Part shown: in pieces, positions 5,788 through 62,939 of the stretch
How the letters are laid out: each line of letters begins with the position of its first letter
Position numbering within the stretch: position 1 is the stretch's first letter
Assembly: GCA_944470555.2 (NCBI GenBank)
Contig: OX104134.1
Span: 115,686,701-115,750,700 of the forward strand
Source of the DNA: Heterobilharzia americana
Taxonomy: Eukaryota; Platyhelminthes; Trematoda; Strigeidida; Schistosomatidae
Direction: 5' to 3'
Length of the DNA stretch: 64,000 nt
Position numbers and translations under genes: made by a program
Notes under the pieces: model-generated
Seen by the model: only the letters and a program-made list of their open reading frames with translations
Database searches by the model: none
Told to the model about the DNA's origin: nothing

Positions 5788-5814
5788 ATGCAAGCTGATA
5801 GTGTCAGGTATACA

Positions 5815-39639: not shown

Positions 39640-41339
39640 ATGAACTGTAGAAATAAGATATGTCGTGGTATACCCGCCTTAATCAATGGGACGGAAAATG
39701 ACCGTTTGACTGAGTACGATAGGGAAGAAGCAGAAACCATGGCTGGATATTTTAATGAGGTCCTCACACAGGAATTTTCTGTGGACACATCCAACAGTAG
39801 AAGCATTGATATCCAACAGAATGAACTTTGTGAATATCGATCGCAATGATGTATTTCGGACATTAAGTACTCTCAATGTGGAAAAATCAACGGGACCGGG
39901 TGAACTGCATGCAAGTTTGCTCAGAGAGCTTGCACTCTATGTAGCCGGCCCATCGGCTATTATACTAAGACTGTCTCTCAGTGAAGGCATACCCCCTATG
40001 ACTGGAAGGATGCCATAATTACACGTATCCACAAGATAGGTTCTAGGCAGCTTCCATCAAATTACAGACCGATAAGTTTGATTAGTACTGTACTAAAAAT
40101 CTCAGAAAGAGTAATCAAAAAACCCATTAGTCCACCTAGAGAGCAACACTCCATTGTCTCGTTCACAGCATGGCTTTCACAGAAATTTCTCTTGCTAGAC
40201 GAACCTTCTTACAGTCAGAGGAAGTTGGGTTAAGTTTAAAGATGATAGGATACCTGCAGATGTCATTTTCAGTGACTTTAGTAAGGCGTTCGGCAAAATA
40301 CCCCATTCCAGGTTGGTGGGAAAACTGGGAAGTTTTGGAACCACTGGCAGTCTGGTTGCATGGATGAGACAGTTCCTCGTTAGTAGGAGACAAAGAGTAA
40401 GGATCAATTCTCAACTCTCCTCTTGGAAGTCAGTAGAGAGTGGATTGTCGAAAGACACAGTCCTGAGTCCCTTGCTTTTTCTCCTATATGTAAATGAGCT
40501 GCCAAATATCACGAATTCCCCAACGGTTCTCTACGCTGATGATGTAAAAATCTGGCGGGAAATTAGGAACGATGAGGATATACGTGCTCTCCAGGCAGAA
40601 TTGAACAGCTTGTTTACCTGGTCAGAGAAGTGGCTGATTCCTATCAATGCAGGTAAATGTGTGAGCATGCACTTGGAGCACACATACATAGCAACACCTA
40701 CGACATTGGTGGGACTCCTCTACCGTCAGTACTGACCCACAATGACCTAGGAGTGACGGTGAATTATGACTTGAAAACCACTGCACACTGTCGTTTGGTA
40801 GCAGCTCAGAGTTTAGGACTCTCTGGGCATTAAATGGAACATTTACGAAAATAAGTAGTGACATGTTCACCATCTTATGCGCATCTTTACTTAGGTCTAA
40901 ATTAGAAAACTTTACACAGGCGGCAAATCCTCGTCTGAAAGACGAAGCAGACCTTCTAGAAAGAGTTCAGAGGACAGCCACTCGTATGATCCCTGTGACG
41001 GCTGGCCTCACCTAAGAAGACAGACTTAAGAAGCTGAAGCTTTCCACTTTATCCTATTGAGGACAGAAGGGAGACCTAATCATGCTATTTAGGATTTTAA
41101 GAAATGACTTCGGACCTAATCTATCTTTTCTTTTCCTTCCCACCAGGTCGAAAAGCCTCAGAGAACATATTAGGAGACCACGGAATAAAAGAATGAATAA
41201 AGTCTTCGCAGAGTACTGGTTTTCTTGTCAAGAAATCAACGCCTGGAACCGACTCCCAGAAGAAGTGGTGTCCGCATCATCAACTGACTCGTTCAAAAGG
41301 GGACTGGACAAGCACAGAAATCTACTGGAAAATGATTAA
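39640..41339 (+). pseudogene. CR1-like reverse transcriptase, element 1
   Basis: Pieces in order: EEAETMAGYFNEVLTQEF (39727-39780), NVEKSTGPGELHASLLRELA (fingers), LPSNYRPISLIS near 40060, FSDFSKAFGKIPHSRLVGKL (motif A, with Gly in place of a family-typical Asp), VLSPLLFLLYVNELPN (motif B region) and LYADDVKIW (motif C, near 40533-40544). The C-terminal NAWNRLPEEVVSASSTDSFK is the LINE tail clause, ending 41339. Several frameshifts; not functional. Confidence 0.85.
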
Positions 41340-42102
41340 TATAGGCTCACAGCCTCCTATCCTCAAACAGCGAATCCGAATCTTACTTCATGAGATGGGT
41401 ATGGGTGTTCACCTCGCACCATAAAGTTAGGTTCCACGATTAGGAACAAACGCATGCGAAGTTCGAAGTTTTCGTTGTAACCATTGACGTCGTAAGTCCA
41501 TTTGCATAGTTTGTTATTTAGTAATCTAACCGTCCTTTCGTTACAAAGTACTTTAGTATTTAGCTTTGCTAACTACAAAGGAACCATGTTTACGATCTGG
41601 AGTGTCGGTAAAGTATCCACACTATACGCAGTAAAGTCGAATCTATACGCTTTTTTTCACTTGGTTCTTGATTACATCAATTTTCAGATTTCCTGTTGTG
41701 TCTGACTACTTATTACTACATTCTTGTGGTAATATTTCAGTCTATCCCATATATTGGGCTTACGGCTCCGCTATTCTCCTCACTTACTGTGTTTCCAACG
41801 TTTCGGTATACTACGTATAGCCGTTCGCTGTTTTTCTATTTTAACAATAAGCTTCGATTTCAACGTCTTTTTAAATGGAAAGATCTAAGGCTAAACGTTC
41901 TAAAATTGACTGCTCTAATGAGAAAAAGCAAAGACTTGGTCATTCCAGTGCTCTCTTATGTGACAGAAGCATTGTTACTCCGTATACCTCAGATCTCGAT
42001 GAACTGGTATGCCCCACGCCTTTTGTTAGAACTGAAGACATCATATCAGTCATTAGTAGCAGTACTAACGACCACAGGTAAGAAATCGATAACATTAAGA
42101 CC

Positions 42103-42537
42103 ATGATGGAAGAGATTCGGAGAATAGTTGAGGATTTCCATCCATTAGCATATCTTCTAGGGAAGCATGAGAACTTAGTTGCAGATCATGTGGTGAAAGC
42201 AGAAAACTTAATAGACCACTTGGAGCTAATGAAGAGACTATCGTCGTCCCAACGGGCCATCGTTTGTAACATACCTGATACCCTACCCTTGGATGTAGTT
42301 AAAACAAAGATATTAAACTCATGCGGTATGACAGGAATACACTGTGACTGTAAGCCCCTTCGCAAAAAGTCAGCGCAGTCTAGCTGCCCCATGATCTTCA
42401 AGTTCACTACTTCATTTGACGCCAAAAGATTTACTAAACTACAAGACCACATAAGGTTACATGGCAGCTTTAAAAATATTGCTATTTCACAAAACAAAAC
42501 CGCGTACCAACGCAGAAAACAAAAAGAAGTAGTCTGA
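42103..42537 (+). pseudogene. CR1-like ORF1 protein, element 2
   Basis: A 144-codon frame. The N-terminal half (EEIRRIVEDFHPLAYLLGKH) is helical, followed by an RRM-like part (RAIVCNIPDTLPLDVVKTKI, then PMIFKFTTSFDAKRFTKLQD) and a basic tail (QRRKQKE). This order is typical of the RNA-binding ORF1 of CR1/L1-group elements, which coats element RNA. It starts at ATG 42103; upstream frames (41875-42081) may be an earlier part. Confidence 0.65.
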
Positions 42538-43163
42538 CCAGTTTATCACATTTAAACACAGAGGCTGCTGTGTGCACGAACAGACCATCAGAAAGTGCTG
42601 ACTTGGTCAGTAATTCTGTTGAATGTTGAATGTACCTCTTCCTCGGTACAACGGTCTCAATCAAATCTAGCTACATATGAGCATGATCCTTCAGTTGCTA
42701 GCAAAATGAAAACTGTTTGTACCGTCCCCCCTAAGGTCACCATAAACAGAAGACCGCTGGGTGACAGAAAACTCAGAAGTTAGGGCGAAACCTCATCATC
42801 TAAAGCTAATGACGGAGGAGAATATTTCATAGCTAAGCCACTAACAATAGACGAACCCAAAAGGCGAGTTTTCCGTCAAACCCCTTTTTTCAGAAATGAG
42901 TGCCACGACAACTCGAGGTTGCATCACACGAGACACTCCTTCGGACCAAGTCCCTTTAATCACAGGGGTCATAACTTGGTCCCGAGTAGCGCCCCGAACG
43001 CTCAAATGTCCTGCATATCACAAACACCTAACCACTGTTCAGCTGTGCATCTTAATAATCCTAGTCAATACATTGGGAACAGATGTACACCCCCGGCAAG
43101 AAACTTTCCCACTTATGAACCCTACCAAGATTTCCTTCGGATCCCGCACAATATGTACGACCC

Positions 43164-44243
43164 ATGGTGTTTAGGCTCCTTCGACCCCCTCATAACACAG
43201 GGCTGGAACCAATTTTCTCGACGTGCACCTGTCATAAACCATACCTTACATCAACAGTAAAGAAGAGGTGCACGTTAACAACCTATAAGTGCCGTGAAAA
43301 ACTAAGTAATCATATACTTGTGAGAGACAGAAACTCACCAGTCACACTGGTACACCCCACTATTGAGTTTTGTCACGTCCGAGACATAGGTAGTGCATCG
43401 TCTAGCGAACTGAATACCAGGAATTCTTCCGCTCACCGAGGCTTAAGAGACATGATAAGTTACTTTGCAAACCATAGTAGCCTTTTCACGCTTCTACTTA
43501 TTAATGCCCGCTCGTTACTTAGGAAAATATCCTACCTTAGAACAGTAGTTTTGCTAACCGAACTCACTGCATTACTAGTTACTGAATCATGGTGTACTGA
43601 CTCAATCCTAGATATGGACACGTGTGTAGATGGTTATACTCTGCGTCGCCATAATCGTGACCACAAGCGTGTTGGAAGCTGTTTGATCTATGTGTGTAGC
43701 ATTGCTACCTCAAATAAGATTGAAGATGACATCTTTAGTGATCTGCTGGGCTCACTTTAAGTCATTATAAACGGTACCAACTACGAAATCCTAGTGGTTT
43801 GGGTGTATAGAGCGCCATGTTCAGCAAACGAAAAAGATGAACTGATGGCTAGATCATTTGCTCACGCTGGGTCCCTCACTGTTGACTTCAACCTGATTGC
43901 AGGCGACTGTAACTTACCTGAAGTTAACTGGGAGGTCGGTCGTGGCCCACAACGATTTGATGAAATACCTGCTATCATAGATATCTATGGCTGGAAACAA
44001 TACATCCAGCAACCCACGCGTGGAGATAGTATACTGGACCTTCTCTTTTGCTGTGAAATCATCCCTGTCACTACCCACATTAGTAGCGAATTTTCTAACA
44101 GTGACCATAGGATGGTATTCTGTTGCTTATCAATTCTTCCTGCCAATGAGAAAAATAGACAATCTTCAAATTATACCCGGCGTAGAAGCTATAAGAATAT
44201 AGAGTACTCATCGAGCTACTCAGGTGCTCTCCATGAGATATGA
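43164..44243 (+). pseudogene. CR1-like endonuclease, element 2
   Basis: One reading frame is interrupted only by TAA at 43758-43760. LLINARSLLRKISYLRTVV, LLVTESWC (TESW catalytic box intact), VVWVYRAPCSANEKD, NLIAGDCNLPEVNW (GDxN box) and SNSDHRMVF (SDH box) are all present. The key catalytic residues of the APE-type nuclease therefore survive and the main defect is one nonsense codon. The frame then shifts before the RT at about 44230. Confidence 0.85.
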
Positions 44244-46286
44244 GATAACTACTTTACCACACACTCTCACTTTTCTACAGAAATGGAGAGCTCTGTGTCT
44301 AGAGACTGTTGCTCCTGTGAAAACAGTTAGGGCTTATAAGGAGCCAGACCAATATATCCCTAAAGTATTCCACAATAAACTTAGGAAATCATCATCACAA
44401 TACCACTCGTCGAAAGACTTCATATCACTGCACTTAATTCATGAGACTTACGAATCTATCAAGACACTAAGTGCGAAACAGGCGGTAAACGAAGAGATCA
44501 TCGCTCTCAAAAGTGGCTCTAGAATACACAAGCTGACATCTCTTCTCAGTAAACGTCTGAAGCTATCAACGGATGTAGCCTATCTGCTACATAATGGGGT
44601 GGTACATAACCATCCCCTCAAGATTAGTGAACTGTTTAGCGAATCATTCACTAATTTCAATCTTAATGCCCTCAACCCCACTAGCTTTACTCCAATCGCC
44701 ACTAGTTCATGTACTAGAGTGGAGTTCACTGTCCAAAGTATCACTGAGGCTATCAGAAGCCTAAAACTATCTACAGGTACGGGGATAGATGGCATAAACT
44801 CAATAGTCATCAGAAACAGTGGTGATGATATGCCACTGTTCTTGCTTAAGATATTCACACTATCAATGGAAAGTGGGAAGTATTCCAGCTTTATAATTCC
44901 TCGCTACAAGTCCGGTGACAAAGCCAATGTTGGGAACTACAGACATATCAACATAACGCCAGTCGTCTCCCGAATTATGGAAAAAGTGATTAAGAGCAGC
45001 ATGTCTGACTACCTACTTAGCGAAAACCTCATCACAAAGTCACAGCACGTTTTCATTAAAAATAGGTCTTGCGTTACTTGCCATTTCGACTTCTTCAACC
45101 TTATCACTAGTAGCCGCGAGGCACGTAAAATCGTCATTGTTCTATACTTCGATATATCAAAGGCATTTGACCAGGTGCCACAAAGTATTCTCTTTGATAA
45201 GCTACAATCGATTGGCATCCATAACCCTTTACTTCATTGGCTAAAATCATTTTTTAGTGATCGGAGCCAAATCGTCAAAGTAAATTCTATGCAGTCTACA
45301 CCTAGGCTCATAACTAGTGGAGTAATACAGGGTAGTGTCCTTGGACCTTTGTTGTTCATAACTTATATTAGTAGTGTATGCAAGTGCTTCACTGTAGGGG
45401 AAACATTCCTATACGCTGATGACCTTAAGGTTGTATACTCATGTCACCCATGAACTAGGTAATACGCTATCTACTGCTCGACAAGAATTAGGTGAAGTTG
45501 CTAAATGGTGTGACGAGTCCCATCTCAAGTTCAACATTGATAAATGTTGTTGGCTTAGCATAGGCAGCGATAACCTAGATGTGTCTCTCGAAGTATGTGG
45601 GCAAAAGCTACCTAGACGTTCTTCAGTGCTAGATCTTGGTCTTAGATATTCCAGTGACTTAACATTCTCTGAGCAGACGGCTTGTATCACATCTAAGTCA
45701 CGTAGACTCCTTGGATGCATCGTCCGTAACTTTTATAGCACTGAATCAAGGGTCCTACTCTACAAAGTGAGCATCCATCCAATTTTAGAGTACTGCCCGT
45801 TTATCTTAAGTGGCCTTCGTATAAGCGACAAAGGAAAAATTGAAGGAGTACAACGCCACTTTACACTAAGAACACTAGGAGCTGACTGCAGCCTAGACTA
45901 CATCTCGAGATGCAACATGCTAGGACTGGAACCTCTCTGGAAGAGGCGACTTAGAACGAATGTTTTATCATAAATTACTTCGTAAGCAAGTGCACTCATG
46001 TGGCCCGGAAATTTAAATAGTTGTAACATCTACTCACTATTTGCGTAATCACAACCTATTAGTGGAAAATGAGTGTTGTAAGACCAAATTGCAAAGAAAC
46101 TTCTTCATCAATAAGTTCTCTCACATCTGGAATAGACTTCCTGAGGAAATACGTACCGCAGGCACATTATCTACCTTTCGTTCTGCACTTAATAAGCTCC
46201 TAACAGATGATCAGTCTATCACTCGCCTAGGCACTATATGTACTTTCTGGGCTAATGAAAGCATACTAGGACCTCTAAACGTATAG
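44224..46286 (+). pseudogene. CR1-like reverse transcriptase, element 2
   Basis: A 409-codon frame runs through LSTGTGIDGINSIVIRNSGD (fingers), NVGNYRHINITPVVSRIMEK, VLYFDISKAFDQVPQSILFD (motif A with Asp), GVIQGSVLGPLLFITYI (motif B) and FLYADDLKVVYS (motif C, 45412-45423). A frameshift near 45440 moves on to a 184-codon frame with the thumb (CDESHLKFNIDKC) and later EYCPFIL. A further shift leads to 46041-46286, which ends with IWNRLPEEIRTAGTLSTFR. Polymerase motifs are intact; two frameshifts disable it. Confidence 0.88.
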
Positions 46287-46300
46287 AGTAAAGCTATCAT

Positions 46301-47750
46301 AAATCTCAAGTACTTTTTACCTCAATGGACTCATAAAGGGTGTTTGATTACTAGTCCATCTGGTCGGATTTTGCAGTACAAATACATAACCAGTGTTCCC
46401 TTTAAGTTTACCAACAAAAACTGCCTATCTAATAACTCATGTGAACTTCATATGAGAAAAAAAAAAAGGATGATTCAATCTCATATAGATAAATTAAAGT
46501 TTACATATAGCTCGAATGACTTAAAAAAGACAAGAACTTCTCTCCTCCCAGTTTGGTTTACGTGGTATTCCATTGTCCAGTTTCTCCTTGAGCTTTCTTT
46601 TCTCTTCTCTTTTCAGTATCAGCCTGACGAGAAAGTCCTAAGCATTAGTTAGATCAAAAAGCATCAACTTACCGGAAATCCTACTTCGTACCTAATACTG
46701 GAAACTGATGTTAGAGGTATCCAACTGGCTCGCCCCAATTTTCCTGTTTCTTGAACAGCTTAACAACCAACTCACCTCCCTACCAGTACCCTAAATGCTA
46801 CCACATACGAAACCCCAAGCACAATAACTGGTCTCCGATTTCTGGTCCGTGACAAATGCAGCGGAAATCTGGATAAACAATCCAACCTGAGAGATCACTT
46901 TACAACGACAGCACATCCATAATAATGCTATGCAACATATTTCTCTAGTACTTTGTCTTGTATCAATCCATCTAATAGAGGTCAATTAACAGCCAATGTA
47001 TCTCCTTGACAATGTTGCACACTTTAATGTGAAGTCTATGAAGTTTTACCCATGTGTAATATTCACCACTGTTGAACGACGATGCTTCCAGTCTTTAATT
47101 ACTTGCACCACAACAATGTTTTCAGTACTACCAATCTGAATTGCTGGAAAAAGTAACACTTGAAAAGTGAGAAAAGCCTGAACTTAGACAATCACCTGGA
47201 TTAAATGATGATATGAATATTTCCGGAGGTATTAAGGCAACAAGAACAATTCACCCTAGATGATTTTACCATCCTTAAAAAGAAATTTAAGATAAAAGAT
47301 CAAGTTGCATAAATCAATGATATTTATGAACAACTATGCCCGATTAATGTCGGTAAATCTAGCGGAAATGTTTCATGCTGTAATTAATTAACACCAACAA
47401 TTTATATCAGTTTGCTCACTTCTGAAGTGCAAGGTCACAAAATATGTCTAGATAAATTCACATAGGTTACAACGATCACAAGTTTCGGCAGTGTTCATAT
47501 TAGTATTCACATTTTTCACCTTCGTGTTGAATAGCATCGTATGATCGTACGATGTTTATAAACCCTGCTTTCGGATCAATTTTAAAAATGATAACCTGAA
47601 TAATCGCTACAACAGTTAGGAGTAAAATGTCAATGACAGTGCTGCTCTGCATTACAATCAGCTTTAAGGTGAGGAAAAGAAGAAATACCAGTATTTACAC
47701 ATACTTATTTGCATGCATGAGTCGGAAAGGGAGTTTTGTTTGCATGTATC
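46301..47750. other. non-coding stretch between elements
   Basis: The first 350 bases may include 3' UTR of the CR1-like element. The rest shows no convincing exon, repeat or RNA gene. Confidence 0.4.
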
Positions 47751-47751
47751 C

Positions 47752-48033
47752 TGCTTCGTCACACACTTCTGCAGAAGCAAAATTGATGACGACCGTGATA
47801 GATTTACCGGACTCTCCAAGCTGAAGGCACACGGTCAAGCATCCTCACCATTTGGCACGCTGTCGTGTTACGTTGCACTGCTCGTCATCTATCCTCCAGT
47901 CAGTTAGTTGGAACGCATCGGTATCTCGGCCCAACCTTGCAAATATGCTATTCCATCCGACTACGCTATTGTGTTCTTCCTTGGTCTCGTATTCTTGGGC
48001 ATATAGCGAGTACGAATAATTAGTGATTGGCCT
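47752..48033 (+). repeat. solo LTR (gypsy family of 29831-31484)
   Basis: It aligns with the LTR at 29831-30159 over most of its length (GTCACACACTTC start, GCTGAAGGCACACGGTCAAG core, GAATAATTAGTGATTGGCCT end). It has small indels and no internal region on either side. It may come from recombination between LTRs or from decay of an insertion. The two ends of the LTR are less well conserved than the core. Confidence 0.75.
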
Positions 48034-48489
48034 CTGTGTCTGTCAAGTTTGCATCAAGACGATTCCGAGAATCCCACCAGATCTGCCTTACTAAAGAATA
48101 ACAGTATATGAAATATTGAACATAATCAAATATTCACTTACTGTTACTATGGTTTTCATGTATATCTTACTTATAAATAAATAAGTAAATCTGTTTTATC
48201 CTCACATTGATAATTTGACATGAGAGAAGCCAGTTTACAGGCATGTTACTTTCAAAGGTAATATAGGTTAATTCCACTGGGAATACTTGTTGTAGTGGAT
48301 GAAAATACACCTTAAAACGATGAATAGTCCAAATATCAGTATTTGTACATAGATATCTTTTGTATTAGCGTAAGCAGAATCATTCGAGAAGTGTATTTAA
48401 TGCGTAGTCACTTCCATATGAAAAGATCACTTGATACAGAGTACTAGAAAACATGTAGTGTGAAGTTTATTCCATAACTTACTGTATTG
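48034..48489. other. short non-coding spacer
   Basis: AT-rich spacer between the solo LTR and the reverse-oriented CR1-like fragment. Nothing recognised. Confidence 0.4.
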
Positions 48490-49765
48490 CATCATAAAGA
48501 ATCGTCACCTAGGTTTAAGGCGGTATTTTTCGACAGGTACAGTACACCCACGATTGCATCGACTATATGAGGACGTAGGCTTGAAAGTAGGAGCGCAACA
48601 GGCACGAGTAATGCCACGCAAAAGGCGGTAAAATAAGTTAAAGTTAAGCTTAAGGCGTCTTAGCCACAGTGGGTCAATCTTCAGTTTCTTACACCTTCTC
48701 TCATAGTCAGGTTCTTCATGACGGCCCAGCACACAGCGAGTAAACATGCTCTGAATATTCTCAATGCGTATCCTGTCCGAAGTATACATATTGCTGGAGA
48801 TGATTGTGCCATATTCAAGTACTGGGTGGACCACTACTTTGAATAAAAGTGGTCTAGCCTCAGTGGTGTATACATGTTTAAGCAAAAGGCCAACTGAACG
48901 CCTACACTTGGATACAAAAGACTGAACATACTCCGTAAACTTTGATTTCCGAGAACACCTAAACCACATACTGAGTTATATGATTGTAGCACAGAGTCGC
49001 CAAGGTGTAAACTGACGTTTGAGTAGGAATTATTGAAACAGAGAATTCTGCATTTACTAGAATTAGGTGGGAGTTGCCATATTTCACTCCAAGCGAACGA
49101 ATACGTCAGGTCTTCCTGGGTTCTATTAGAATCCTCACTTAGTGATGAGTGGGGGAAGCTATACACAATTTTTAAGTCATCAGCAAACAGGTAGGGCTTA
49201 CCATATCTTATTACGTTAGAAATATCATTTATGTAAAGGAGGAAGAATAACAACCCCAACACACTACGTTGAATGACTCCACTCAAAATAGGCTTTGGGG
49301 AGGAATAGGTGTGACTGAACTTTACTATTTGAGTACTCTGTCTCAGGAATGAGCTTATCCCCGATAATAGAGGGTCACTAATTCCAAATGATTCAAGCTT
49401 CAGAATTAGCTGATAATGAGACACTTTATCAAATGCTTTTTTGAAGTCAAAAAATAGAGCAGTTACGAAAACACCTTCATCTCGTTTGCAGGTGACTTCC
49501 TCAGAATAATGCAGTAAGCAAGTACTGCATGAACGACCTTTTAAGAAACCATACTGCGTAGGGGAAAGTAGCTGATGCGCGACCATAATCAGTAATTTCT
49601 TGCACACCCACCTTCATAATACGAGAGACTACAGATGTAATATTTGTGGGACGATAGTTTTGAATATTTGACGTCAGGCCAGCGGTCAGCGTAACATGCC
49701 TCAGTAAGGGATATTGAGAATAGCTACGCATGAGCATACTATTGCGCGTACACATCATAAGTCAC
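48490..49765 (-). mobile_element. CR1-like retrotransposon 3, 5'-truncated RT fragment
   Basis: Only the RT and its C-terminal part are present: no ORF1 or endonuclease, as expected of 5' truncation during target-primed reverse transcription. On the - strand it starts near 49760 with SNIQNYRPTNITSVVSRIMK and ends with the C-terminal frame stop at 48505. It differs from elements 1 and 2 in sequence. Confidence 0.85.
48505..49758 (-). pseudogene. CR1-like reverse transcriptase, element 3
   Basis: The 257-codon frame complement(48834-49607) holds YGFLKGRSCSTCLLHYSEEV, LFFDFKKAFDKVSHYQLILK (motif A), GVIQRSVLGLLFFLLYIND (motif B, with Arg for Gly) and YLFADDLKIVYS (motif C, codons at 49176-49187). 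After a frameshift near 48970, complement(48505-48969) carries LKHVYTTEARPLLFKVVVHP, LEYGTII and later LWLRRLKLNFNLFYRLL, the typical CR1 C-terminal clauses. One frameshift plus motif B change; defective. Confidence 0.85.
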
Positions 49766-50600
49766 AAAGTAAGTAACAAGTGTCTTAAAAAGCAAAGCAT
49801 TACACCAGATGAAACTCACTCTCTAATATAAGAGCGAAACAAACATTAGAAAGTCTTGGTAATCCATGAACGAACCCAATCAGCACCACAGCTTAAAAAG
49901 GCGTCCCTTACTGCGGTGTAATCTTCTGAAACCCATTGAAAGTTTCTCGAATTAAGTTGAAAATGTTCCACGACTGCATTTTTCTATATATTCTAACATA
50001 TCACAGTATTTATTTGACTGTTGAAATGACAGTGGAGCTACACAAGCACTCTATGATGGCTTCAACACTGAGTTCTTCTGAGGCGTTTTCAAACTGTTTT
50101 GAACTTATAAGTTTTATTTTCAGTAATCCCATCTAGTCTTCACCACGCATAACGAAGATCAGTCATACAAACGCTCCAAAATCAGGAGTTACCGTCACAG
50201 CCTTATTACTTATTCCAAACCAACGTTGTATGAAGCGCGGAAATCGAAGACACATTTTCCCCTGTAACACAGTATACGTGCCGTTGATGTGTTCCCATCT
50301 ATAGCCTGGAGTAAGAAAACCATTGCTTCTTTGCACAAAAGGTGTCCATTTGCAGCCTAATAGCTTGACACATAAACCGATGAAAGGGTGATAGGCATGC
50401 CGTTAGGCTCCACCTTCTTCTGTGTCTTCATGGCTTTTCTTGCAGACACGTCTTGCTGACGAGTACCAACAGACAACAAACCTAGGTTCAGGGTTTCCGA
50501 CTGATTGTATCAAACCATCTAACATCCATCACAGTGAACCACAATACTGAGCCTCCCAGATTGGCGACCACATCTCAAAGTGGTTGATAGAATCCGGTCA
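49766..50600. other. non-coding stretch
   Basis: Nothing supported. It may include further decayed upstream sequence of the Penelope-like relic that starts near 50590. Confidence 0.35.
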
Positions 50601-51275
50601 ACTCTTACCCTCTTGATGACATACCTGTTGCTTTCAATGCAACGAATCATACGCTCCATCTGTTTGAAAAGCTTCATGAAGCTCAAACTAACACAAGTTT
50701 TACTGTAAACTATGGGCACAATAACCAGTTAGACTCCCCAGACTTCTGTATAACAGGAGGAAACGGTGGTGCGATTGATAAAAATGTCCACAGAAAGGAG
50801 ACATGGATCGGTCAATATATGAACTGGCCCAGCTTTTTTCCCAACAGTTACAAGTGAAGTCTGGTCAAGACAATTCTAAGTGGAGCAAGAACATTTTGTT
50901 TGGAAGACATGCTTGAGGAAGAATTCACGATCATTGAAAAGAATCTTAAGAAACGGGATATCTCAGGATGCTTATCATGAAATACGTAAAACTAATGAAG
51001 ACAAAATTTAAACCTGAAACTGTTGGAAAGGAACCGGTCTTCATTTTCCTTGCATTCAAAGGTGACAAGGTATCAGCACGAATTACAAAGGAAGTTAAAG
51101 CCGCATTGAATAAGACCTCTCATGCGGCTACGTCGGTCTCACTTTATATCACACCCTATTTATTTGAAGTGAGGCGGAGTAGACGATTACCATGCTCATG
51201 TAATCTTCAACTACATCTAAAAATATCAATGCATCTAAGGCGGCGTGTGCATATGAAGAACTAGTTGGATGATCC
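50590..51275 (+). mobile_element. Penelope-like element relic (RT motif C to GIY-YIG start)
   Basis: One frame from about 50590 reads NSYPLDDIPVAFNA (decayed YVDD box of the RT), then LHEAQTNTSFTVN, NVHRKETWIGQYMNWPSFFP (the HRKPTxTxxYxxxxSxxP clause of Penelope-like elements), one TGA, then ARTFCLEDMLEEEF. The frame shifts into 50968-51264 with FLAFKGDKVSARITKEVKAA and a SCN clause at the point where the GIY-YIG nuclease begins. Related to the - strand fragment at 31485-31800. Decayed. Confidence 0.72.
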
Positions 51276-51589
51276 TGAAAGAAATTTTATTTAAGCGAGA
51301 TGGCCAGGCTTATAATGGGTGGAGGATATGCAGTCAAGGTTAGTAAGGCTTTAGAAATCATTCATATATACAGAATATTCAGTTCGCTTAGTTTTGTGAA
51401 AGTGATTCCAATCAAACGATCATGGTCTTGTTTCTATGTGCACAGAAGTATTGTTAATAACAATATGTTGCTTTGGCAAACGTGTTCTGAATTTGTTGCA
51501 TAACCTGAATTATTTGTGTTGCTGCAATGACGTTTTGTCCTGATTTCAATTAATTCCTAAACTTTTCATACATGATTTAGTAATGATGG

Positions 51590-51890
51590 GCAGTGGCTAG
51601 CAGGGGAATCCAGGATGTGCATTTCGTCCTATGTGGGACTCGTTAGCTGGATGTACCTGCCTCCCAGTGAGTGATGTTGTTCCCACCGGTACTCAGACTC
51701 GGCAGCGATCGCTTCAAACGCTAGAGCGTTATCCACTACACCACCGAACCATGATAGCCGCTTCTTGTACGACGGGTATAGTTTTAGTGTTATTGCTTGT
51801 ATGACATGGTTGTTAATTGGACTGAATTGATCAGTCTGTGTTGGCATATGGGCTCGTATGCGGATGCCTCGATATCGCCTGTGTTTTAAT
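51590..51890 (-). mobile_element. SM-alpha-like SINE
   Basis: On the - strand: head with GGCATCCGCATACGAGCC and CATATGCCAACACAGACTGA, then GGTGTAGTGGATAACGC (box A), GAGTCTGAGTACC (decayed box B), CTCACTGGGAGGCAGGTACA, CGAGTCCCACATAGGACGAA and the end CCCTGCTAGCCACTGCCCAT. It is the most complete SINE in the window. The head matches a fragment at 18150-18240. Confidence 0.72.
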
Positions 51891-51899
51891 TATGTATAG

Positions 51900-51955
51900 T
51901 AATGATGGGCAATGGCTAGCAGGGAAATCCAGGATGTGCATTTCGTACATTTGAT
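51900..51955 (-). repeat. second, truncated SINE 3' end
   Basis: TAATGATGGGCAATGGCTAG and the following bases repeat the 3' end of the SINE at 51580-51635 with few differences. This places a truncated copy head-to-tail beside the complete one. Confidence 0.65.
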
Positions 51956-54825
51956 ACATGAGTTTGGATACTTGTCAACACACTAATATGTGACACTATC
52001 CGCTATTTATATCCCTGAAATGTTTAATGACTCTTACCCTCCTCCTAACCCCAGCACCTTGTATTACGCAATATATGTAAGTACGTAAATTCACTGTTAT
52101 CTTATCTTTATAAATTTCAGATTTGCTTGTGTTCTGTGAATTTGAACTTAGCCTTTACTTGAAGCAGCTGAGGTTTATTACATAGTTGTCTGTTGACTAT
52201 GATAATGTTTTTGATTTTAGGCTGATTCAACTTATGAGAAGCTGTGAAATAAAATTCGCATATTTTCTTCTGCATGTGCCTTTATAATTGCTTTGCTTAA
52301 AAGCATTTACGCCTCAGATTTCTTTCAGCGTTGTAAAACTATTTTTATTGTACACGATTTCCTTTATTTTTGAAGAGCTTTCGGTTGTTGTGATGTGGAG
52401 TATTTTTGAGGAATCTGTAGTTGTTAGTGTAGCTTTACAAAGATCACTGAGCCTCAGAATACTAGTAATGGACGCCGTTGACTTGAACCAGCGTGAGAAG
52501 AAAACGCTGAAGAACGGGTCCCCAAGAACGCTTTGGTTTTGTTTTTTAAGCAAATTAGCAACTGTATTGACAGTGTAGATACTGTAATGTTCATCGAAGT
52601 CTTTAAATCAAGGTCAGTACAGTTTTAAATTATTCTCGTGATAGTTTGGCTCCAGGACCGTGAATCTGCGGACGGGCATGATACAAATTGGCGAAATTAT
52701 GGTGATTCAAGAGAAGAAAATTTGATGTGATCAAAAACACAAGAAATTTTGCAACATCTGAGTGACTTTGAGAGTGAAAACTTTTCGATGTCGTCATAAT
52801 AAGGTCATGAAACGCCAGACTGTAATCCACTCAGTAAAGGACACAAACTTGTCTAACAAGTGTTGAGGTTCAGCGCACACATATGGTAAATGGGGCCAAT
52901 CTGACTCTCCTTTGTTTGATGAAAACTCAATGATAATCTTATCTAGTTATTTCTCCGGGTAAGCAGTCGAAGGAGGGCTAGATTATAGAGTAAATAACAC
53001 GAAATCACTTTTCCTACATCAATGGGTGTTGTCGTTTTCAAACTGCAAACAAAGGATGGCTATTCTATGCCAATAACAGTTACGGAGTGTTTTTTCACCT
53101 GTAGTGAATGCAAAACTAACATATTACTTATTTGTGGTGATTGAAGTTGGAAAACTGAGTGATATTTCACACTATATTCGCTTTTTTATTTTTCATATGG
53201 TAGAATCACTGATTGAAATGGCTGAGTTATGTGCTACCTATGTCTATTCAGAGTCTGCCTCGTTGTGTAATGTTAGCTGAAGTAGGTTAAGGCCGTACTG
53301 AGGTTAGTCGTCCACACTGAAACATCACATCAGTCCGTAAAGTTTGTGACTGCTGATCCCAGCTGTGAGGGGATTGTACACTTTCCGGTTTTGTTTCACG
53401 TGACAACCGATATTGGTGATTACAGACTATGAGTGGTGTGACTGAAAATCGATGTCATTGGGGCAGATGCTTTCACTGTTATAACCATCAGGCCATATTT
53501 CATTATTTATGTACTCTGCACTTCTTCGTTTCTTATGCCTTTCTACGATCTCTGGTCACATTCTTCTATGTTTCTCCATCTTTCAACTGTTTTGTATCTT
53601 GACGCATTGATATGAGGTGTGTGACTTGATTCATCACTCGTTGTTATCAGATCTCACGTTGATAATAACTGACTGATCCAGAAATAGGTTTTCAGTGAAG
53701 TGAAAATATTGGTAGGTTATTTCAGACGTAAGTGGCCATTCACCGAGTGCCTGAGCATATGGTTTCCCCGAGTAATAAAAGCTCTTCTACGTAGTCCGTA
53801 CATTTCTGATACAAACTTCATATATGGCAGTGCCAAGTTACTAAAATCAAGGTAAATAGGCCAATCTTGGTATGTTTTTATTCAGATTTTGAACAGAACA
53901 CTGGTATCCGTGAATGCTTAAGTCATTTAAACATATTTTCAGATAAAATACAAGTAAATTAGCCTTCAGTATTGAATCAGCCAGCTGTTCAGAGTTTAGG
54001 ACATGTCGTGTGCAGTGATGAAGTACGACTGTATTATTCGAATTAATTTGCGTACTGATATACAAAATAATATTTCCCTACACATCTCGTAAAACAATTT
54101 CTATTTGCACAATCACGAGGGTCTGATTAAATTAGTTTTATTCTTTCTCATTGTTGACTTTCAGTAAAATGAGATCACGATTATTCAGGTAGGAAAATAA
54201 GACGATGAGCAACTATCTTGGCACTGTGTCACTTCACTAAAAGGTGGTGGGATTACGTTTTTGCCTGGGAGCAATCATTCCCTTCATTAAACTGATAGAG
54301 AAAAAAGAGCTATGAACTGTTATCAGAAGTTATTCATAACACTGGGTAAAGAAGTTACATTGCTTGTTAAAAAAGTGTAAAGGATGTTCGTTTAAAGTCT
54401 TATGGAGACAACACATTATTAATTATGCAACAACCATCCGAATGGGAACTGTTTCACTTAAAGGCTGAATGTTGTATGGCGATTCTTCTTCTTTGAATTT
54501 TGTTTACTCGACAGGCTTTTCTGAAAAGCAGAAACATTTTGTATTACTTGTTACATTATTTATCAAGAGAAGGAGGTTTAGGAAAACTTAATTTGGTCAT
54601 CAGTATGCTTGTATAACACTTCTTAAAATGAGAAAGCTCATATACCGAATTTGTATTTCTATAGGAAATAACTTCACTCTCAAACAAACGAATGGATTTA
54701 GTATTTTGCTTCGAATAAAGTAACATTAGAAAACGTTTCCGATGTCATTTAACGGTTTACAAAAGGGATTTCACTGAATGCATTTACAATATCGAAACAA
54801 GTTTGACTTTTGATATCATCAATAC
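51956..54825. other. mostly non-coding stretch
   Basis: No gene supported. Two overlapping opposite-strand frames at 52288-52578 are protein-like in neither direction. A possible + strand exon after ATTTCAG near 52120 (about 52 nt) has no partner. Confidence 0.35.
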
Positions 54826-55200
54826 CCGAACGTCAGGATTCAAAGCAACCATCAACTGTAGTACCCATTGTCTGATATTGAAGGCGATGTTGAACAGTAT
54901 GAAATAATTCAGCAACAAGAAGTCGTCTGGCCTAATTGTGGCAAATCGAGGCTTACCATCCAGAATATCAAATATCCAACGCATACTCCGTGAAGCAATT
55001 TGGTTATTCCGGTGTAACGAAAGTACACGCTGAAGGCTCAGGCGAATGGAAATGTGCATCATTTTACGATAGACTATTATCAAGTGCAATGAAATCCACA
55101 GCAAACCGTTAATTAAGAGAATTAAACAGTTTTTTGTCTGTGTCCAATATTGCCACACAATGACGTTGCACAAAACTTTGTTGTCGTTAGAAAGCATTTG
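54826..55200 (-). CDS. orphan coding exon candidate, membrane-like peptide
   Basis: The frame follows a - strand acceptor ending GATTTTAG and runs 125 open codons to a GTATTG donor (phase 0 in and out). If the donor is ignored, TAA follows shortly. The peptide has two hydrophobic stretches (NCLILLINGLLWISLHLIIV; LLNYFILFNIAFNI) around a polar middle (SLHRNNQIASRSMRW). That could be part of a multi-pass membrane protein. I do not recognise the family. An open frame this long in AT-rich DNA is unusual, but no partner exon was confirmed. Confidence 0.3.
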
Positions 55201-58200
55201 CTAAAATCTTTGAAAGACACGACCATCTTGACTTTTCCATAATGGTGATAAGCTGTTTGAGTGATTTAATTCGGTGCCGAAATTATATACTTCAACCAGT
55301 GAGGATTATTCAAATAGAGTTGATTGTAAGTGTAATCCATGTTATCTATGTACTGATGGCATAAGTGAAATCAGTCTCTCTTCACTAATCCCAATGATAG
55401 TGCACCAAATCATCATGAATTAAGACTTCTAGTGACATGATGTTTTACGTGTTATATTCAATATTCTAATCGTTGAAAGTACAAAGGGACGGATTAAGTG
55501 ATTATTTACTTCTCAGTATCTTTATAACCTGTTTACTCACTGTATGACCGTTATTCAAGCAACACATAACCACTAGGTGGTGAAGACGCATTGAAAATGA
55601 ATGTTTGAGTCACTTTTATTTCAACCAGGATCTCACCTTCATATCAGAAACAGCTTTCTTATACATTGTATGGATTACTAAAATTCAAAAATCAACACAA
55701 TCGTCAGTGTTAGTGTATGTTGATAGTGAATAATGTTTGGAGTTCAAGCAGCAGGATATACACATCAGCGTGGAAAGAGGAACGAGTGAATAGAAACTTC
55801 TTCTGATAACCGCTATTCATTGGTGAGGGCAGAATATTTTTCCTTAAGCCTAGTCATTAAGTGCTTCTGATTTGATCGTGATTGATCATTCAGCATACCT
55901 TCATCATTTGATAGGACAATTCACTTCCTTGAAGAGTTGATATACACTTTGTGAACGTCTTCTCAAGAAATTTGCAACCAAAATGATCAAGTAGTCCGTT
56001 GGTTGATAAAGTAAACCCCGCAGTTACGCGTCAAATCCAAAACAGTGGATTTTTCTCAAGTAGGGGAATGCATTAGTTGTTAAGAAAAATGACTGACAAA
56101 TTATATACCTCGAATCATGAGCTATCTTCCACCTTATCCAAATCAATAGCAGCTTACAGGAAGTTTGTCAACAATGTGAACAGTAAAATCGTGTCAAAAA
56201 CAAACCAGAGGTGAATATGAGAAAGATACGGATATCCAGGGCGAGATGAAAGGCATGACATGAACAAGTGTTCTGGGGAAGATGTAGCATCACAAAAATA
56301 ACCGTAGGGAGCACAACATGATCGGAAATTGGGACAGAGATATATTTCCTATGATGTTGAATGACGAGCAAAATATGATTATAACCGAAATGACCACCGG
56401 AGCTGCAGTTAAGGTCACATGGTGGAAGAACATGAATCACACAACTCATCATGAGTAAGTAGCACAAGACTATATGCATAAACCTGATAAAGCGTAAATT
56501 TGAGGCAAAAATTTAGAATGCAGCAAAGAAAGAATTAGCACATCTTGTATAGACATTTTAAAGCGTATTATACATACAAGAATGTGAAATTTCTACTAAT
56601 TCTCCCAGAAATGTCTGACAACTGAATAATGGCAAGCTAAAGTAGTTCTTTGATGAAGACATTTCAGTTTACTGTAAGCTATGTAACTCTTGTTATTTTC
56701 ATATCTCAGAAATTCCTTTGAGGACACTTCATCGGGAAACTTTTGAGGCACATTAGTTAGGTTGTAACATTTGATTATTTTAGTACCCATGTCGTATTGT
56801 TAGATATTCATACCATCTATACCACGAAAACAAAACACTCATTCAACTTCATCCGTGTTACTACAACTTTCAAAATGCGTTGGACCGAAATGCATAGCAT
56901 TGCTTCATCGTATATTTGATTTATCCTTACTTGTACTATTAGATAATCGAATAGGTAATATTTATTGACTAGTAACAAGAAATATGGCAATGTGACGCTC
57001 ATCTACTAACTTATTTTTCGAAATCACTTCACTTACTTGCATTTTTCATGTATTCTATTCTAGAAGATGCGTCATTGCTTATGAGATGGATTAGTCGTTG
57101 AACAGCTGAAGGAAATGAAATACCTCATGATGTCAATATCCATTGGATGAAAAAATATGCGGATAAGGCAAGTAGGGTTGTTTCGATAGACTGGTGATCA
57201 GTTTATCTGTAAACAGATAATAGGTGTGAGTGATAATGGTATGTTTAGTTAGCGTTTAAAAAGAAGTCAGTGATCACGACGCAGACGAAACACACTTCTA
57301 TTATTTCTGTTATTCGGCTGTAAGTCTCTTTCTGTATGCATAGACTTACATAAAGTTTATAAGTCACTACTTGAACTCACTTCATGTGATCTTCAAAAGT
57401 GACTTTCTAATCAGCGGAATGCTTTTCAAGTTTATACTCTACTGGTCTCGTGTTTCTGGCAATGAAGTTTTCATTTAGTAACTGTATTTCAAAAGTATCT
57501 GAATCCTGTGACAAGCTTTTAACTGTAATGGGATGGATGATACATGAAACCTCCGAACATCGTAAGTATTTTTGCGAATATCCAAGTCATAAGAATAGAG
57601 GTCATCAATGTGTATTCCACCAGAAAACTATTTTCAGTCACAGAGAATCTTATGCCGTCTTGCTACGGACACTAATGAACCTAAGAAATGTCAATTTCCA
57701 AGTCACAACACTTAGGTCGAGTAGGCTTCCTGTCAACTGACGTTCACCGCTTAAGACCAAAATACCATGCACAGCAATGACCATATTGATAAGCTTGACC
57801 GACAGACTTCGATCAGTGCTAAGCGCTTATGACTAGACGGCCACATGGATTACGAACTGGTGATCAACTCGTGTGGATAATCCAGTCCTTCAAGAGGTCA
57901 GTATTGGACTGAATATCCTAGTGGGTAGGTCTCTGACTTCAGCATTGAGTGATGGAAATACCAATCACCGAGGGAACGAAGGCTTTCCATGGTTGCAGAT
58001 GCTCCTTGTTGATGTGTACCAGCAAATACGAAGCATAGGTCGAGGTGGTATTCCTATCAACTGCTATTCACCATCTAACACCAAAGACATACCACCTTGT
58101 TGAGAAAATGGACGGTAGGGTGCCATATGCTGAGATCTGAAGCTCTTTCAGATGATGATAAATGATCACATTTTTGTCATAAAAATATTTTATGACCCAT

Positions 58201-58590
58201 TTGCCTTAAGTCCTTGACGAATCAGTGGTGTGTGAGCCAGTCTTTCAAAATGCACTTCCTTGTATATCATATCGAAACATCCCTTAACCTGTTTATTTTC
58301 GGAATTTTTGTGTAGATAAAGTTGCACTGCCATTGCTACTAGTATAAAATCTGGATGCCTTGGTGGATCTGACTGGACATTTTTTTTAACTGTTACATCC
58401 ATAAGGGTGTATTCAGGGTGTTAACCACCGGAAAAAAGAATCACTTCCACATACTTTCATTGTTTACAGATGGTAGATATTGATCACATTCCTTATTCTG
58501 TGGACCGAATAATTGATCTATTCAATTAAGAGAAAAAGAAGAAAGTTTCAGCTTGAGTTTGTGAGAGAATAGGTTTTTCGTTCTAGCATA
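55201..58590. other. mostly non-coding stretch
   Basis: Short frames with weak protein character lie on the - strand at 56168-56479 (signal-peptide-like start MHIVLCYLLMMSCVI) and 56596-56790 (NLTNVPQKFPDEV, faintly like a leucine-rich repeat). At 57700-58110 + strand sequence is GC-richer and repeat-like. None reached the standard for a gene. Confidence 0.35.
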
Positions 58591-58593: not shown

Positions 58594-61500
58594 TTAGTCT
58601 TCAAATATGGCATCGGTGTGTTCCGCTAACCAACTATCCACGATCTTAGACTGATGGAAAACAAAAGTACTTATCCGTCTTAAAACACCAACATATTAAT
58701 TTCCCAATGAAATCGTGCGTTAAAAAACAGTCTTTCAAAAGTTAGCTAAGAGTATCATCTACACAGCTAACAGCCAAATTCGACAGTAATATAATGTCTT
58801 TTAGTGAACTGGAACGAAAGAGAGGTTAGTAGACATCTCGAGAATAGAAGCCCTGTACTTCAAATGTAATCTGTGGAACCAGTTAACTTCCTGAGGAAGG
58901 CAGTTATGCGAGTTCGGAATTGTCACGAAAAAAAAGGATGGAATAAAAAGAGGATCAAAACAAATACCACCTCAATAGAGTTTTAAAATGTGTTTTCACA
59001 CAGCTTTAAGGGCAATAGATATATTCCAACAATTAAGCAAAATATCAAGGTTGATATTTATAGACCCTCTGAGAATCTTGCCAAAGGACTCGTAATTACA
59101 AGGAATCTGCGACATTTACATATCTGAAAACGCAATTAAAGTCCTAAAGTTCTTCATGAAAACGGATTCACCTTGGACAAAGCAAAAATATATATCAAGG
59201 AGAGTTTTTAGTTATCGAAAGATGAAAGATTCCAACCTTTGTTCTGTCCTCGGAATTGATTATTGACTTGTCTACCTCACTGACATTTTACGAATCACGA
59301 ATAAAATAGTTATAAACTTTAAAAACTCTTCGGTCACTGCTACACATGTATTCAGGTAGATCGGTAGAAGCAGGTAGAGAAATAAACTGGCTTTAACTAG
59401 CTAGTTATATCACTGACCTTTATAGCTGCCAAACATGAAATCGTAGGCACTCAGTATTTCATCCCTGTAGTTTTTACCTGGTGGAAGCCAAATAAAAATA
59501 TATATTTGGTGTAACAGAGTTTGGTCTTCAAAAGCATTGAGAATTCGTTTATTGTCTAGGTACAATGCATCCACGACCTTCTAACACTATACTATAAGCC
59601 CATATGACAATTATGCTCAACTGATATAAAAAGACATGAAAGACGTTTTGATTTTCGTATAAAATCAACGCGACGAGTGCGATTATGAAACAAACATGAC
59701 ATAAGTGGTGTGCATTTTAGTGAGCGTATATTCAATTGTTACACTGAATACATATGATTAAGGATGCGTACCGTATTGTGAAACCACTGGCTCGATTGTG
59801 CTGACAATTTCTGAAGCAAATCAGGTCGAAAGGTTGATTTTCATTATGCAAATTCATCAGATCAGGTCAGGTGATTGAAAAGGATGAAATATATTTACTT
59901 CAAGATAAATGTATAAGTAGTTTGAAAAATAGTGTCTGCTACTTGTATGTTGGCCTTTGACTTGATTTCCTTTTTTCTTTTATCCATTACTTTGTACACT
60001 TCACTGATTGATTACAGAATCAACTTCCAACTCACAGTGTATCACTGTCCCACCATAACTGATTTCATTAACACTCACTTCAATTAATCCTCGTATTTAT
60101 ACTGTCATTGTGTCCCTCACATTTATACGTGGTTTTCAGTTCATATTTCGAGTTTCTCAATACGCCACGACAATAGTTCAACTTCAAAAAAGTTGACAAA
60201 CTTACGTTTCAACTTCCAAATGTACAAAACTTCACTAAATATACTTCCCTCTTTACATACTCATAGATTGTCTTCAGAGCAAATCACACTGAATCATATG
60301 TCGAGTGATATGACGGATAAATTAGAAACTGACTAACCTGGTAACATTTTCGTGAGATAATACTGTGCATAATTCTTCTTTTGACATGTCACGACTAAAA
60401 TGGTGAACTTCTAATGGAATCCAGGTTATTACTTACACAAATCAATCGATTTGCATTCAACTTTGACGTTTTTATTCAGCTCAGCTGAAAAGTACAGAGG
60501 AAGGTGATATAATATATGTAAGTATGAACTTAGTAGGCTGAATTAGTTTTCATTTACACTTTGCTCATTTCATATTTCAGTGGAGGGAAACTACTTGTAA
60601 AAGTTATCCATAACCAGTACATACATAAAGGTTTTCTCATATGTTTATCTTCTGAAATATTTGAAGATCTGTGTTAGGCTACTGAATCCGAAGGATTCTT
60701 CGCTTATTTTTGCCTGATTATAAAGTATCGACACTACACATAGTCCATAATTACTGCTACACGCAATACACTTTTCTTTTCCTCTATAATATTACTATGG
60801 TTGTACGTTATCAGATTTTGTGAAGCCCAGATATCTCGGAGATCCAATTACATCAACAAGTAAGAGTCAACTTCAGAGATTCACATCCATATGATATGCA
60901 ATAACACATTTATATTTACCTTGCAAGGAATCCAATTTGTGACTCGCATTCAGAAGTTTTCCGAAATCATTCGCAGACTCATCTGAAAATCAATAAAGGA
61001 GTCGGAAGTTTTGTGCAAATATGATTAGAGTGAAAGGGTAGATGCAATTTTTCGAATGAAACGTCATACCTTATCTATTACATCCATACCACTCTACATA
61101 CTTCGAATGCCCTGAAGTTGATTCAGTTTCATTCTGAAGAGACACGAGTAAGCGGAGAACTGTTCCTCAGTGGCATGAATCATCCATCGTTTGCCGACAC
61201 CGTATTTCAGTTCACTTCGTCTTAGAAGTAAGCACCTATTCACATGTTCATCCAAGAGAGCAGACACAGATTCGCAGAATAAAATAAGCCCACTTGATTT
61301 CCATGTTAATCTTAAGCTGCTAACAGCGTATAGATACAAACGGTGAATGAAATTAGAACAAATACTACCTACTTTAGGGGAAGGAGCTAGAAAATTGGTC
61401 GCATCTTTTAAGAAGGGGGAAATGGGGAGTGGTGATATCAAAGTTATAGGTGAAAACAGAGTCAGTTATCTACTCTCCGAAAACACTACGATGAGTCTTT

Positions 61501-62939
61501 TGATAGAAGTGTCTAAATGATTTACAGGTACAATTATCCCACATCCAATCGATCCAGGACAAAAAGTGGACAAAGCTTCCTTTAGAATAATCTATTAACA
61601 AACGAATACAACCCAACTTATCTTGACTTAAGTGGTCACAATCAAAAGGGTTCAACCTGAAATCTGTTGACAGAACGAGGCTTCAGTTAGTGACGTGACC
61701 ATTTCTTCATATATTGATAACCCATTGATTTCAATTCAGTATACTCCTTTTACTTGTCTTCCTAGATAATATTCATTTATTTTCTAACTGTTCTTGAAAG
61801 TCAGAAATATTTTTAAATACACCCCTAGGTAGAAATTCTGGAATCTTCTCGACTATTTCCCAATAGACATCTGACAGTGTTTTTACCGAAAACTAAGGTA
61901 TTTTCATTTTTCTTCTCCCTCTATTCTCGTTAACACAACCGATTTTCATGTTCCTGGTGCTCATCGAGACGTGTTAGCTCTATTTTACCCAATTCCGCGC
62001 ATGTTTGCCAGCTGTTAGCGTTTGGAGAGAAGCAATAAAATAAAACTGTTGTCCTTTATTCTGTAAATGTTCTTCTTCTTGCGTTAATGAAAATGATCCA
62101 GGAAAAGCATTTTGTCAAGGAAGATGTTGATATGTCGCATGTAAACAATGAAATTCATTACACGTAGGCCTGTTACCGCAAACGTGTGTGTGTGTGTTAT
62201 TCAGTTTACTTTATCTCACTCTGATATTTTTTAGACATGGTTCTAAACTCCTTCATTTTGGCTCCATAAAAGTTGACATCTTGAACTGAAGTGGCTGAAA
62301 AATAAATAAAGCTAATTAAAATTTGGTAAAATACCTTAAATTCATAATGCACAATAATATACAGTATTTGAGATAGGTAGGTATAGAAATAAACCGAACA
62401 GATTTCGGTGTCTAGTTGGTTACATATAGTGTGATGTATCAGCTGACTGAAAATTTTCAATAGACTTATTAACTAGATGATTACTTGTTACTTTGACTGG
62501 GGATTCGACTACATCTTTTATGCAAGACATCATGAAGTTAAGTCTCAGTTACAGGTAGTGTATACTATGGTCAAATTGCCAGAGCACTTAGTGTATGTAG
62601 CTTTTACAGATGTTTCTTCAAATCAAATTTCAACGAGTAACAGAAAGTCATCTAACTGGCTGAAGACCATATAAATGATATACTTAAATGATATTGAAGT
62701 GGTAGCGTCGACTCCAAAGTCAGCGACTGGTGATATTGAATATTTCATTTACAAATGCTCTATTCATCGTTAGCAGACAATGCGGATGTCATTGTTTGAC
62801 ATATGGGATGCATTGACTGTACATATTGAATCAAAGAATAAAATTATTTGAAATATTTTAGCATAAATTCTATTTTTACAGTTCAAAGTGAGATTATTAC
62901 TTTTCTGAGAAATACTTTCGGTAGTTATTTCTTTCATTT
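58594..62939 (-). CDS. micro-exon gene B: MEG-like secreted protein, paralogue of gene A (5' exon outside window)
   Basis: Model on the - strand: complement of 62901-62939, 62220-62294, 60920-60982, 60338-60394, 59772-59810, 59418-59477, 59281-59336, 58594-58650. Lengths are 39, 75, 63, 57, 39, 60, 56 and 57 nt with stop. The first six are symmetric phase-1 exons. The seventh exits in phase 0 into the terminal exon, which ends DAIFED before TAA. Paired peptides with gene A: MKEFRTMSKK/MKEFLDLSKE, CQKKNYAQYYLTKM/CQKENYMQHYTSKM, IVSTIEPVVSQY/IVNTVEPIIKKF, YRDEILSAY/YRDKLLSRY. The exon order and four lengths are the same. About 148 residues are seen, without the signal peptide, whose exon was not found up to 64000. 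The product is inferred to be secreted, by homology to gene A. The terminal two exons are less certain than the rest. Confidence 0.75.
61102..61656 (-). CDS. unrecognised protein-like exon pair inside gene B intron
   Basis: Frame 1, complement(about 61480-61656), follows the acceptor CAGATTTCAG. It reads CDHLSQDKLGCIRLLIDYSK then FLSWIDWMWDNCTC and RHFYQKTHR. Frame 2, complement(61102-61404), follows a strong pyrimidine tract and TTAAAAG. It is 303 nt, open in phase 1 in and out, and ends at a GTATGT donor. It includes SICSNFIHRLYLYAVSSLRL and GVGKRWMIHATEEQFSAYSC. The composition (many W, C, H, aromatic) is unlike random AT-rich frames and unlike the micro-exon proteins. The roughly 80-nt gap between them could be a short intron or a frameshift. 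It may be a nested gene, a processed pseudogene fragment, or (second part only) an extra exon of gene B. Confidence 0.4.

Follow-up and report, generated by a model that had tools for sequence, protein, structure and literature searches.

The window analysed here is a stretch of 64,000 nucleotides from the trematode Heterobilharzia americana (positions 115686701-115750700 of contig OX104134.1 in assembly GCA_944470555.2, which comprises 665 Mb in 337 contigs). It contains a predicted gene of many short exons, A, on the plus strand and all but the first exon of a second one, B, on the minus strand. Together with the flanking DNA, the window forms part of a cluster of at least four predicted genes of one design, which are found within about 180 kb in the order D (minus), C (minus), A (plus) and B (minus); A is the inverted member, since the other three all have the minus orientation. 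Judged from the predicted exons, B is a true paralogue of A, as an earlier note on this DNA had observed, and A forms with C a mosaic of nearly identical and divergent stretches. Coordinates are window positions, negative to the left of the window and above 64000 to its right; flanks of 100 kb were added on each side, and then 40 kb and 10 kb further left. The locus and its contig's end are about 1 Mb apart.

Structure of the genes

Internal exons were searched solely as stop-free multiples of three in a single phase with AG/GT borders, and the borders of the A exons were partly picked with B in view; this construction itself favours the uniform phase, the open frames and the chain score given below. 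The predicted exons of A and B and the positions of C and D are the following.

5815..5884, plus: A exon 1, signal-peptide-like, a hydrophobic open reading frame (ORF) whose donor has the phase needed; encodes the same residues as C exon 1
6382..6423, plus: A exon 2, 42 nt, predicted, inside tract 2 (see below)
7001..7075, plus: A exon 3, 75 nt, matches B exon 3
7216..7278, plus: A exon 4, 63 nt, predicted
7825..7860, plus: A exon 5, 36 nt against 48 nt in B, C and D, its predicted acceptor being shifted downstream relative to theirs
7904..7960, plus: A exon 6, 57 nt, matches B exon 6
8714..8752, plus: A exon 7, 39 nt, inside tract 4, matches B exon 7
11110..11163, plus: A exon 8, 54 nt, counterpart of B exon 8
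12295..12357, plus: A exon 9, 63 nt, matches B exon 9, same length
12891..12959, plus: A exon 10, 69 nt, same length as B exon 10
13493..13545, plus: A exon 11 and stop codon, DNA similarity to the B exon-11 region
64346-55615, minus: gene B, 11 predicted exons from signal exon to stop
64346-64274, minus: B exon 1, signal exon, 274-346 bases beyond the window edge, resembles A exon 1
62901..62939, minus: B exon 2, 39 nt, AG/GT borders, open frame
62220..62294, minus: B exon 3, 75 nt, pair score 33 with A exon 3 (7001-7075)
60920..60982, minus: B exon 4, 63 nt, equal in length to exon 4 of A, C and D
60437..60484, minus: B exon 5, 48 nt, as in C and D (36 nt in A)
60338..60394, minus: B exon 6, 57 nt, after a 42-nt intron; pair score 54 with A exon 6
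59772..59810, minus: B exon 7, 39 nt, pair score 39 with A exon 7
59418..59477, minus: B exon 8 (YRD exon), 60 nt (54 nt in A, C and D)
58455..58517, minus: B exon 9, 63 nt, pair score 55 with A exon 9, the highest of all pairs
57037..57105, minus: B exon 10, 69 nt, identical copy at 83348-83416 (plus), outside the window
55615..55677, minus: B exon 11 and stop codon, 63 nt, identical copy starting at 88130 (plus), outside the window
-26828 to -40965, minus: gene C, 11 predicted exons
-97042 to -116090, minus: gene D, 11 predicted exons, exon 2 tentative

All six exon lengths that the earlier note gave for B (39, 75, 63, 57, 39 and 60) recur in predicted exons that have AG/GT borders and stay open, and its lengths are correct for the second exon (39 in B, 42 in A) and for the YRD exon (60 in B, 54 in A). 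It had placed the gene at 58594-62939, which is shorter than the predicted span: exon 5 (48 nt), exon 9 (63 nt), exon 10 (69 nt) and the terminal exon 11 had been overlooked inside the window, while the signal exon, for which it advised looking past position 64000, is found at 64346-64274. The internal exon lengths in nucleotides are 42,75,63,36,57,39,54,63,69 in A, 39,75,63,48,57,39,60,63,69 in B and 42,75,63,48,57,39,54,63,69 in both C and D. Intron 5 has 42-43 nt in all four genes, and one intron of D has 8219 nt. In sequence, exon 2 of B hardly resembles its counterparts in A, C and D.

Exon 5 of A is unlike that of B, C and D around its acceptor (7812-7860), where it is predicted with 36 instead of 48 nt; compared with C, its sequence is changed so that, in the predicted model, only the downstream acceptor preserves the frame. 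All four terminal exons carry D(M/I)(K/Q)V close to the stop. The motif GTGAG, found at 13534-13538 (plus, A) and 55636-55632 (minus, B), could be a donor instead of coding sequence. As a candidate for the last exon of A, a lysine-rich ORF at 15157 was dropped, its best score being 7 among candidates on the B side, the side that was tested.

Homology of the four genes

Aligned as joined products, as the earlier note had proposed, the predicted A and B proteins have 11 colinear exons, with 33% identity and 63% positives over 208 columns. B repeats the exon series of A (75, 63, 57 and 39 nt in order) colinearly, and the chain of A exons scores 259 in B, compared with a maximum of 39 and a mean of 12.5 in 300 random 6.1-kb strand stretches outside the four genes, a margin that is somewhat flattering because B was partly consulted in placing the A borders. 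The same chain scores 393 in C and 281 in D, in stretches that are longer than the 6.1-kb controls.

The A/B exon pairs score 55, 54, 39, 33, 30 and 24, and the best opposite-strand control in the B region scores 27; five pairs are above this control, but the exon 8 pair, with 24, is below it, and exon 2 (1/12 residues identical), exon 4 (4/20) and exon 5 (4/11) are weak. At the DNA level the B region has 11 non-self blastn matches in the window at E≤1, four of which (at 6988, 7887, 8694 and 12270, with E of 6e-5, 2e-4, 0.003 and 0.009) are colinear with A exons in the right orientation. The strongest of the 11 (E 1e-6, 18693-18887) is not colinear with A exons and looks like an unrelated repeat. 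Between the exon-11 regions of B and A, 143 of 224 DNA columns are identical.

The nearest relative of A is C, with 57% blastp identity, and not B; the other identities are 41% for A-D, B-D and C-D, 35% for B-C and 33% for A-B. The four products share 42 invariant alignment columns, three cysteines among them, and a simple hydropathy score gives a hydrophobic N-terminus in all four predicted products. Nonsynonymous divergence (dN) is lower than synonymous divergence (dS) over the whole coding sequence in all six gene pairs.

The small cluster that the earlier note suggested is larger than proposed, with four genes and a truncated copy of the tail of B, and the further copies that it recommended looking for outside the window are C, D and this inverted tail copy. 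Apart from the latter, a fifth gene was not found in the 314 kb around the window (-150 kb to +164 kb, with 468 N bases in the first 264 kb). A whole-genome search with protein A gives 10 matches, eight in A and two in C, and misses B and D, so it places no bound on copy number.

The A/C mosaic and the truncated copy of B

Four tracts of A, and one segment around the end of B, recur elsewhere in the cluster as nearly identical DNA.

2406..6185, plus: tract 1, DNA upstream of A together with its signal exon, 3777/3780 aligned columns identical to inverted DNA at the 5' end of C
6301..6550, plus: tract 2, contains exon 2, 238/248 A/C columns identical
7359..7795, plus: tract 3, inside intron 4, 432/435 A/C columns identical
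8694..9111, plus: tract 4, exon 7 and the start of intron 7, 416/418 A/C columns identical
47219..58090: segment with B exons 10-11, recurs inverted at 82360-96933 in three pieces with 99.2-99.9% identity

Outside the tracts, the background between 6900 and 7960 has 468 of 588 A/C columns identical, and the tracts at 7359 and 8694 each have a binomial P of about 2e-38, a value uncorrected for the choice of the tract edges. Identity is 0.951 in intron 4 and 0.721 in intron 5. In intron 6, which is between two tracts, it is 0.731, equal to that of shuffled sequence (0.731), with a higher alignment score (310 vs 205), and two pieces taken from the remainder of intron 7 have 0.762 (shuffled 0.725) and 0.729 (shuffled 0.735). 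The A/C dS is 0.37 over exons 1-7, 0.52 over exons 2-7 and 1.15 over exons 8-11; these last exons have 39% identity, similar to the other pairs (35-47%). Uniform descent from one duplication would not give this pattern, which can be fitted by repeated ectopic conversion or recombination with edges inside introns.

The duplication that copied the tail of B breaks inside B intron 9. Exons 10 and 11 are present in the copy letter for letter, in order and on the opposite strand, while a letter-for-letter copy of exon 9 was not found there, and the copy has an extra 3.3-kb repeat that is absent on the B side. This truncated inverted copy of the last two B exons is a case parallel to the A/C mosaic. 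The upstream region of A (-288 to 3946) also has an inverted copy, 98.6% identical, to the left of D (-128152 to -132355), near which no family exon was found.

Retroelement surroundings

A and B are convergent and face each other across a retroelement island, as the earlier note had described, with reverse-transcriptase ORFs inside the 42-kb gap. Four of the eight ORFs of at least 150 amino acids between A and B gave a match (span 34332..49607).

34332-35381, minus: RVT_1 ORF, below the Pfam cut-off
38285-38920, plus: Exo_endo_phos ORF, below the cut-off
44224-45450, plus: RVT_1 ORF, Pfam match
48837-49607, minus: RVT_1 ORF, Pfam match

Part of the island is formed by repeat copies at 21160-24300 and 33590-36650, which are in opposite orientation and have many translated stretches in common. 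A type I hammerhead ribozyme at 51608-51652 (minus) scores 56.5 bits (gathering score 34), which we take to be consistent with a schistosome SM-alpha-like retroelement. A scan for prokaryotic promoters and terminators near the hammerhead, uninformative here, gave no matches, and a Schistosoma spliced-leader sequence was not found at up to two mismatches.

Comparison with micro-exon genes

The predicted family falls within two of three published descriptions of micro-exon genes (MEGs) and outside the strict one of 6-36 bp exons, so the name MEG, which the earlier note gave to the cluster, stands under those two. The rule of Olson et al. 2020 asks for at least seven exons and runs of at least four (PMC7653826); the predicted models have 11 exons, of which 8 (A, C, D) or 9 (B) qualify, in runs of 7 or 8, a count that takes in the 63-nt terminal exon of B and in which divisibility by three is a condition of the exon search. 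The broad description (PMC10526429) asks for 10-20 exons, of which the short ones have 6-81 bp, mostly in multiples of 3, and for introns of about 0.1-5 kb; 11 exons and internal lengths of 36-75 nt agree with it, the introns of 42-43 nt and of 8219 nt (D) being out of range. Under the strict description, symmetric exons of 6-36 bp make up about 80% of the coding region (PMC5825161), whereas the fraction of coding sequence in exons of up to 36 nt is 0.06 in A and 0 in B, C and D.

Schistosome MEGs such as MEG-2, -3, -4 and -8 resemble these genes in their signal peptide (putative in the genes here), many short symmetric exons, long introns, setting rich in transposable elements (TEs) and paralogue clusters (PMC10526429, PMC8293314), and differ in having exons mostly of 6-36 bp instead of 36-75 nt, a comparison made with published descriptions. 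Most MEG exons of S. mansoni have 15 bp (PMC10526429), unlike those of the four genes here. None of six published S. mansoni MEG motifs (PMC10526429), written as regular expressions with self-chosen residue classes, occurs in any of the four products. Proteins A and B match nothing above the curated Pfam cut-off (best E 0.028 and 0.16). Among 38 candidate homologues of protein B outside this genome none reaches E≤1, in a library whose coverage of flatworm MEGs is uncertain, and among 884 candidates for the four-row alignment none reaches E≤10, which says little on named MEGs. A single PDB match at E 0.75 is taken as chance.

Copying of exon-bearing segments between members is shared with MEG-3 and MEG-8/9: the exon duplication of MEG-3.1/3.2 is attributed to break repair at a TE insertion (PMC8293314) and the terminal-exon swap of MEG-8/9 to ancestral recombination (PMC5825161). 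Unlike in these genes, the tracts here are still near-identical DNA and cover introns, upstream sequence and the signal exon, so their edges can be read. A family of S. japonicum, in which members have the core promoter region and signal sequence in common, is explained by repeat-mediated non-allelic recombination (PMC3434034); that family is dispersed, whereas here the members are neighbours in opposite orientation and the rest of the genes is also homologous. The expansion of subtelomeric gene families in S. mansoni is similar in its segmental duplication in TE-rich DNA (PMC10900676), the locus here being about 1 Mb from a contig end, and the main text of that paper has no 'micro-exon', 'MEG' or 'gene conversion'. 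In a partial coverage of the literature on gene conversion with micro-exon genes or schistosomes, which includes PMC4015677, no description of tracts like the A/C ones was found among the papers listed. Exon copying between MEG members is already described; the new finding here is the A/C mosaic.

Origin of the cluster

The preferred reading, which we regard as probable, is a family of at least four paralogues, probably secreted, with symmetric cassette exons, in which A and C were remixed by ectopic conversion or by partial inverted duplication. The products, of about 205-215 residues, would be encoded by a signal-peptide exon, then by nine short cassette exons of 36-75 nt that are spliced together in phase 1, and last by a short final exon; hydropathy suggests that they may be secreted through the signal peptide. 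Every predicted internal exon is symmetric, so single exons could be skipped or exchanged in frame, the exchange being backed by A/C DNA identity and the splicing being predicted. The family would have grown by old duplications, and ectopic gene conversion or partial inverted duplication, breaking inside introns, would still be remixing it. Such remixing would have given A and C their common upstream region, signal exon and exon-7 patch, while the remainder stayed divergent, and the same process may have copied the last two B exons elsewhere. As a guess, the product might be a secreted, probably helical, host-interface factor.

Several points weigh against this reading. The gene models are predictions from sequence alone, whose open frames and phase are partly a product of the exon filter; the signal peptide is putative, from a hydropathy score, and the helicity is a guess. 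The terminal exon is uncertain, as the GTGAG near the end of A and B is a possible further donor, and D exon 2 is tentative. Beyond A/C, dS is near saturation, the donor and the recipient of conversion are not distinguishable, and assembly error is possible for the near-identical tracts.

That the near-identical inverted tracts are assembly artefacts, from duplicated haplotypes or chimeric joins, is unlikely; the mosaic would then not be biological, and the paralogues would still be real. Identities of 99.2-99.9% over kilobases are what such an error could leave, but two of the tracts have just about 420-440 bp with 2-3 differences beside sequence that is about 20% different, and the copy of the B tail has a 3.3-kb repeat that B lacks. 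The earlier note favoured one inverted duplication of a single gene as the source of A and B, which their opposite strands and common exon series suggest. This origin is very improbable, since the divergence is deep (33% identity, with a whole-coding-sequence dS of about 1.1, near saturation), A/B DNA similarity at E≤1e-3 is confined to exons 3, 9 and 11, with weaker matches at exons 6 and 7, and C and D are on the strand of B, with C far closer to A than B is.

Slightly less credible still is that A and C are one recent duplicate pair, whose divergent patches come from strong diversifying selection on exons and not from conversion. Exons 5 (26/35 columns alike) and 6 (39/55) are indeed less alike than intron 4, but introns 5 and 6 diverge to about the same degree, which puts accelerated exon evolution low in the ranking; the synonymous divergence is high too (0.52 over exons 2-7), and the tract edges are inside introns. 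Least credible is that A and B are unexpressed pseudogenes merely keeping frame, for which exon 5 of A, in frame only through a shifted acceptor, and open frames, which prove little because they are a condition of the exon search, could be cited, but against which stand the 42 invariant columns and the low dN in every gene pair.

Significance for the family

With the four-paralogue reading, the locus supplies four gene models of a kind that is hard for automatic annotation, and it also gives a caution, as trees built from whole proteins may be misleading in families like this one. The symmetric exons of secreted genes of micro-exon type are usually explained by alternative splicing. The near-identical tracts with intronic edges make a second explanation testable, which is that symmetric exons tolerate recombination between paralogues. 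A more speculative idea, possible although we lean against it, is that the locus could act as a germline exon-swapping station, in which phase-1 cassettes would be frame-safe and conversion between inverted neighbours and truncated donors, such as the copy of the B tail, would recombine upstream region, signal and body exons. If true, such a station would match, at the level of DNA, the diversity that micro-exon splicing has been proposed to give in schistosomes.

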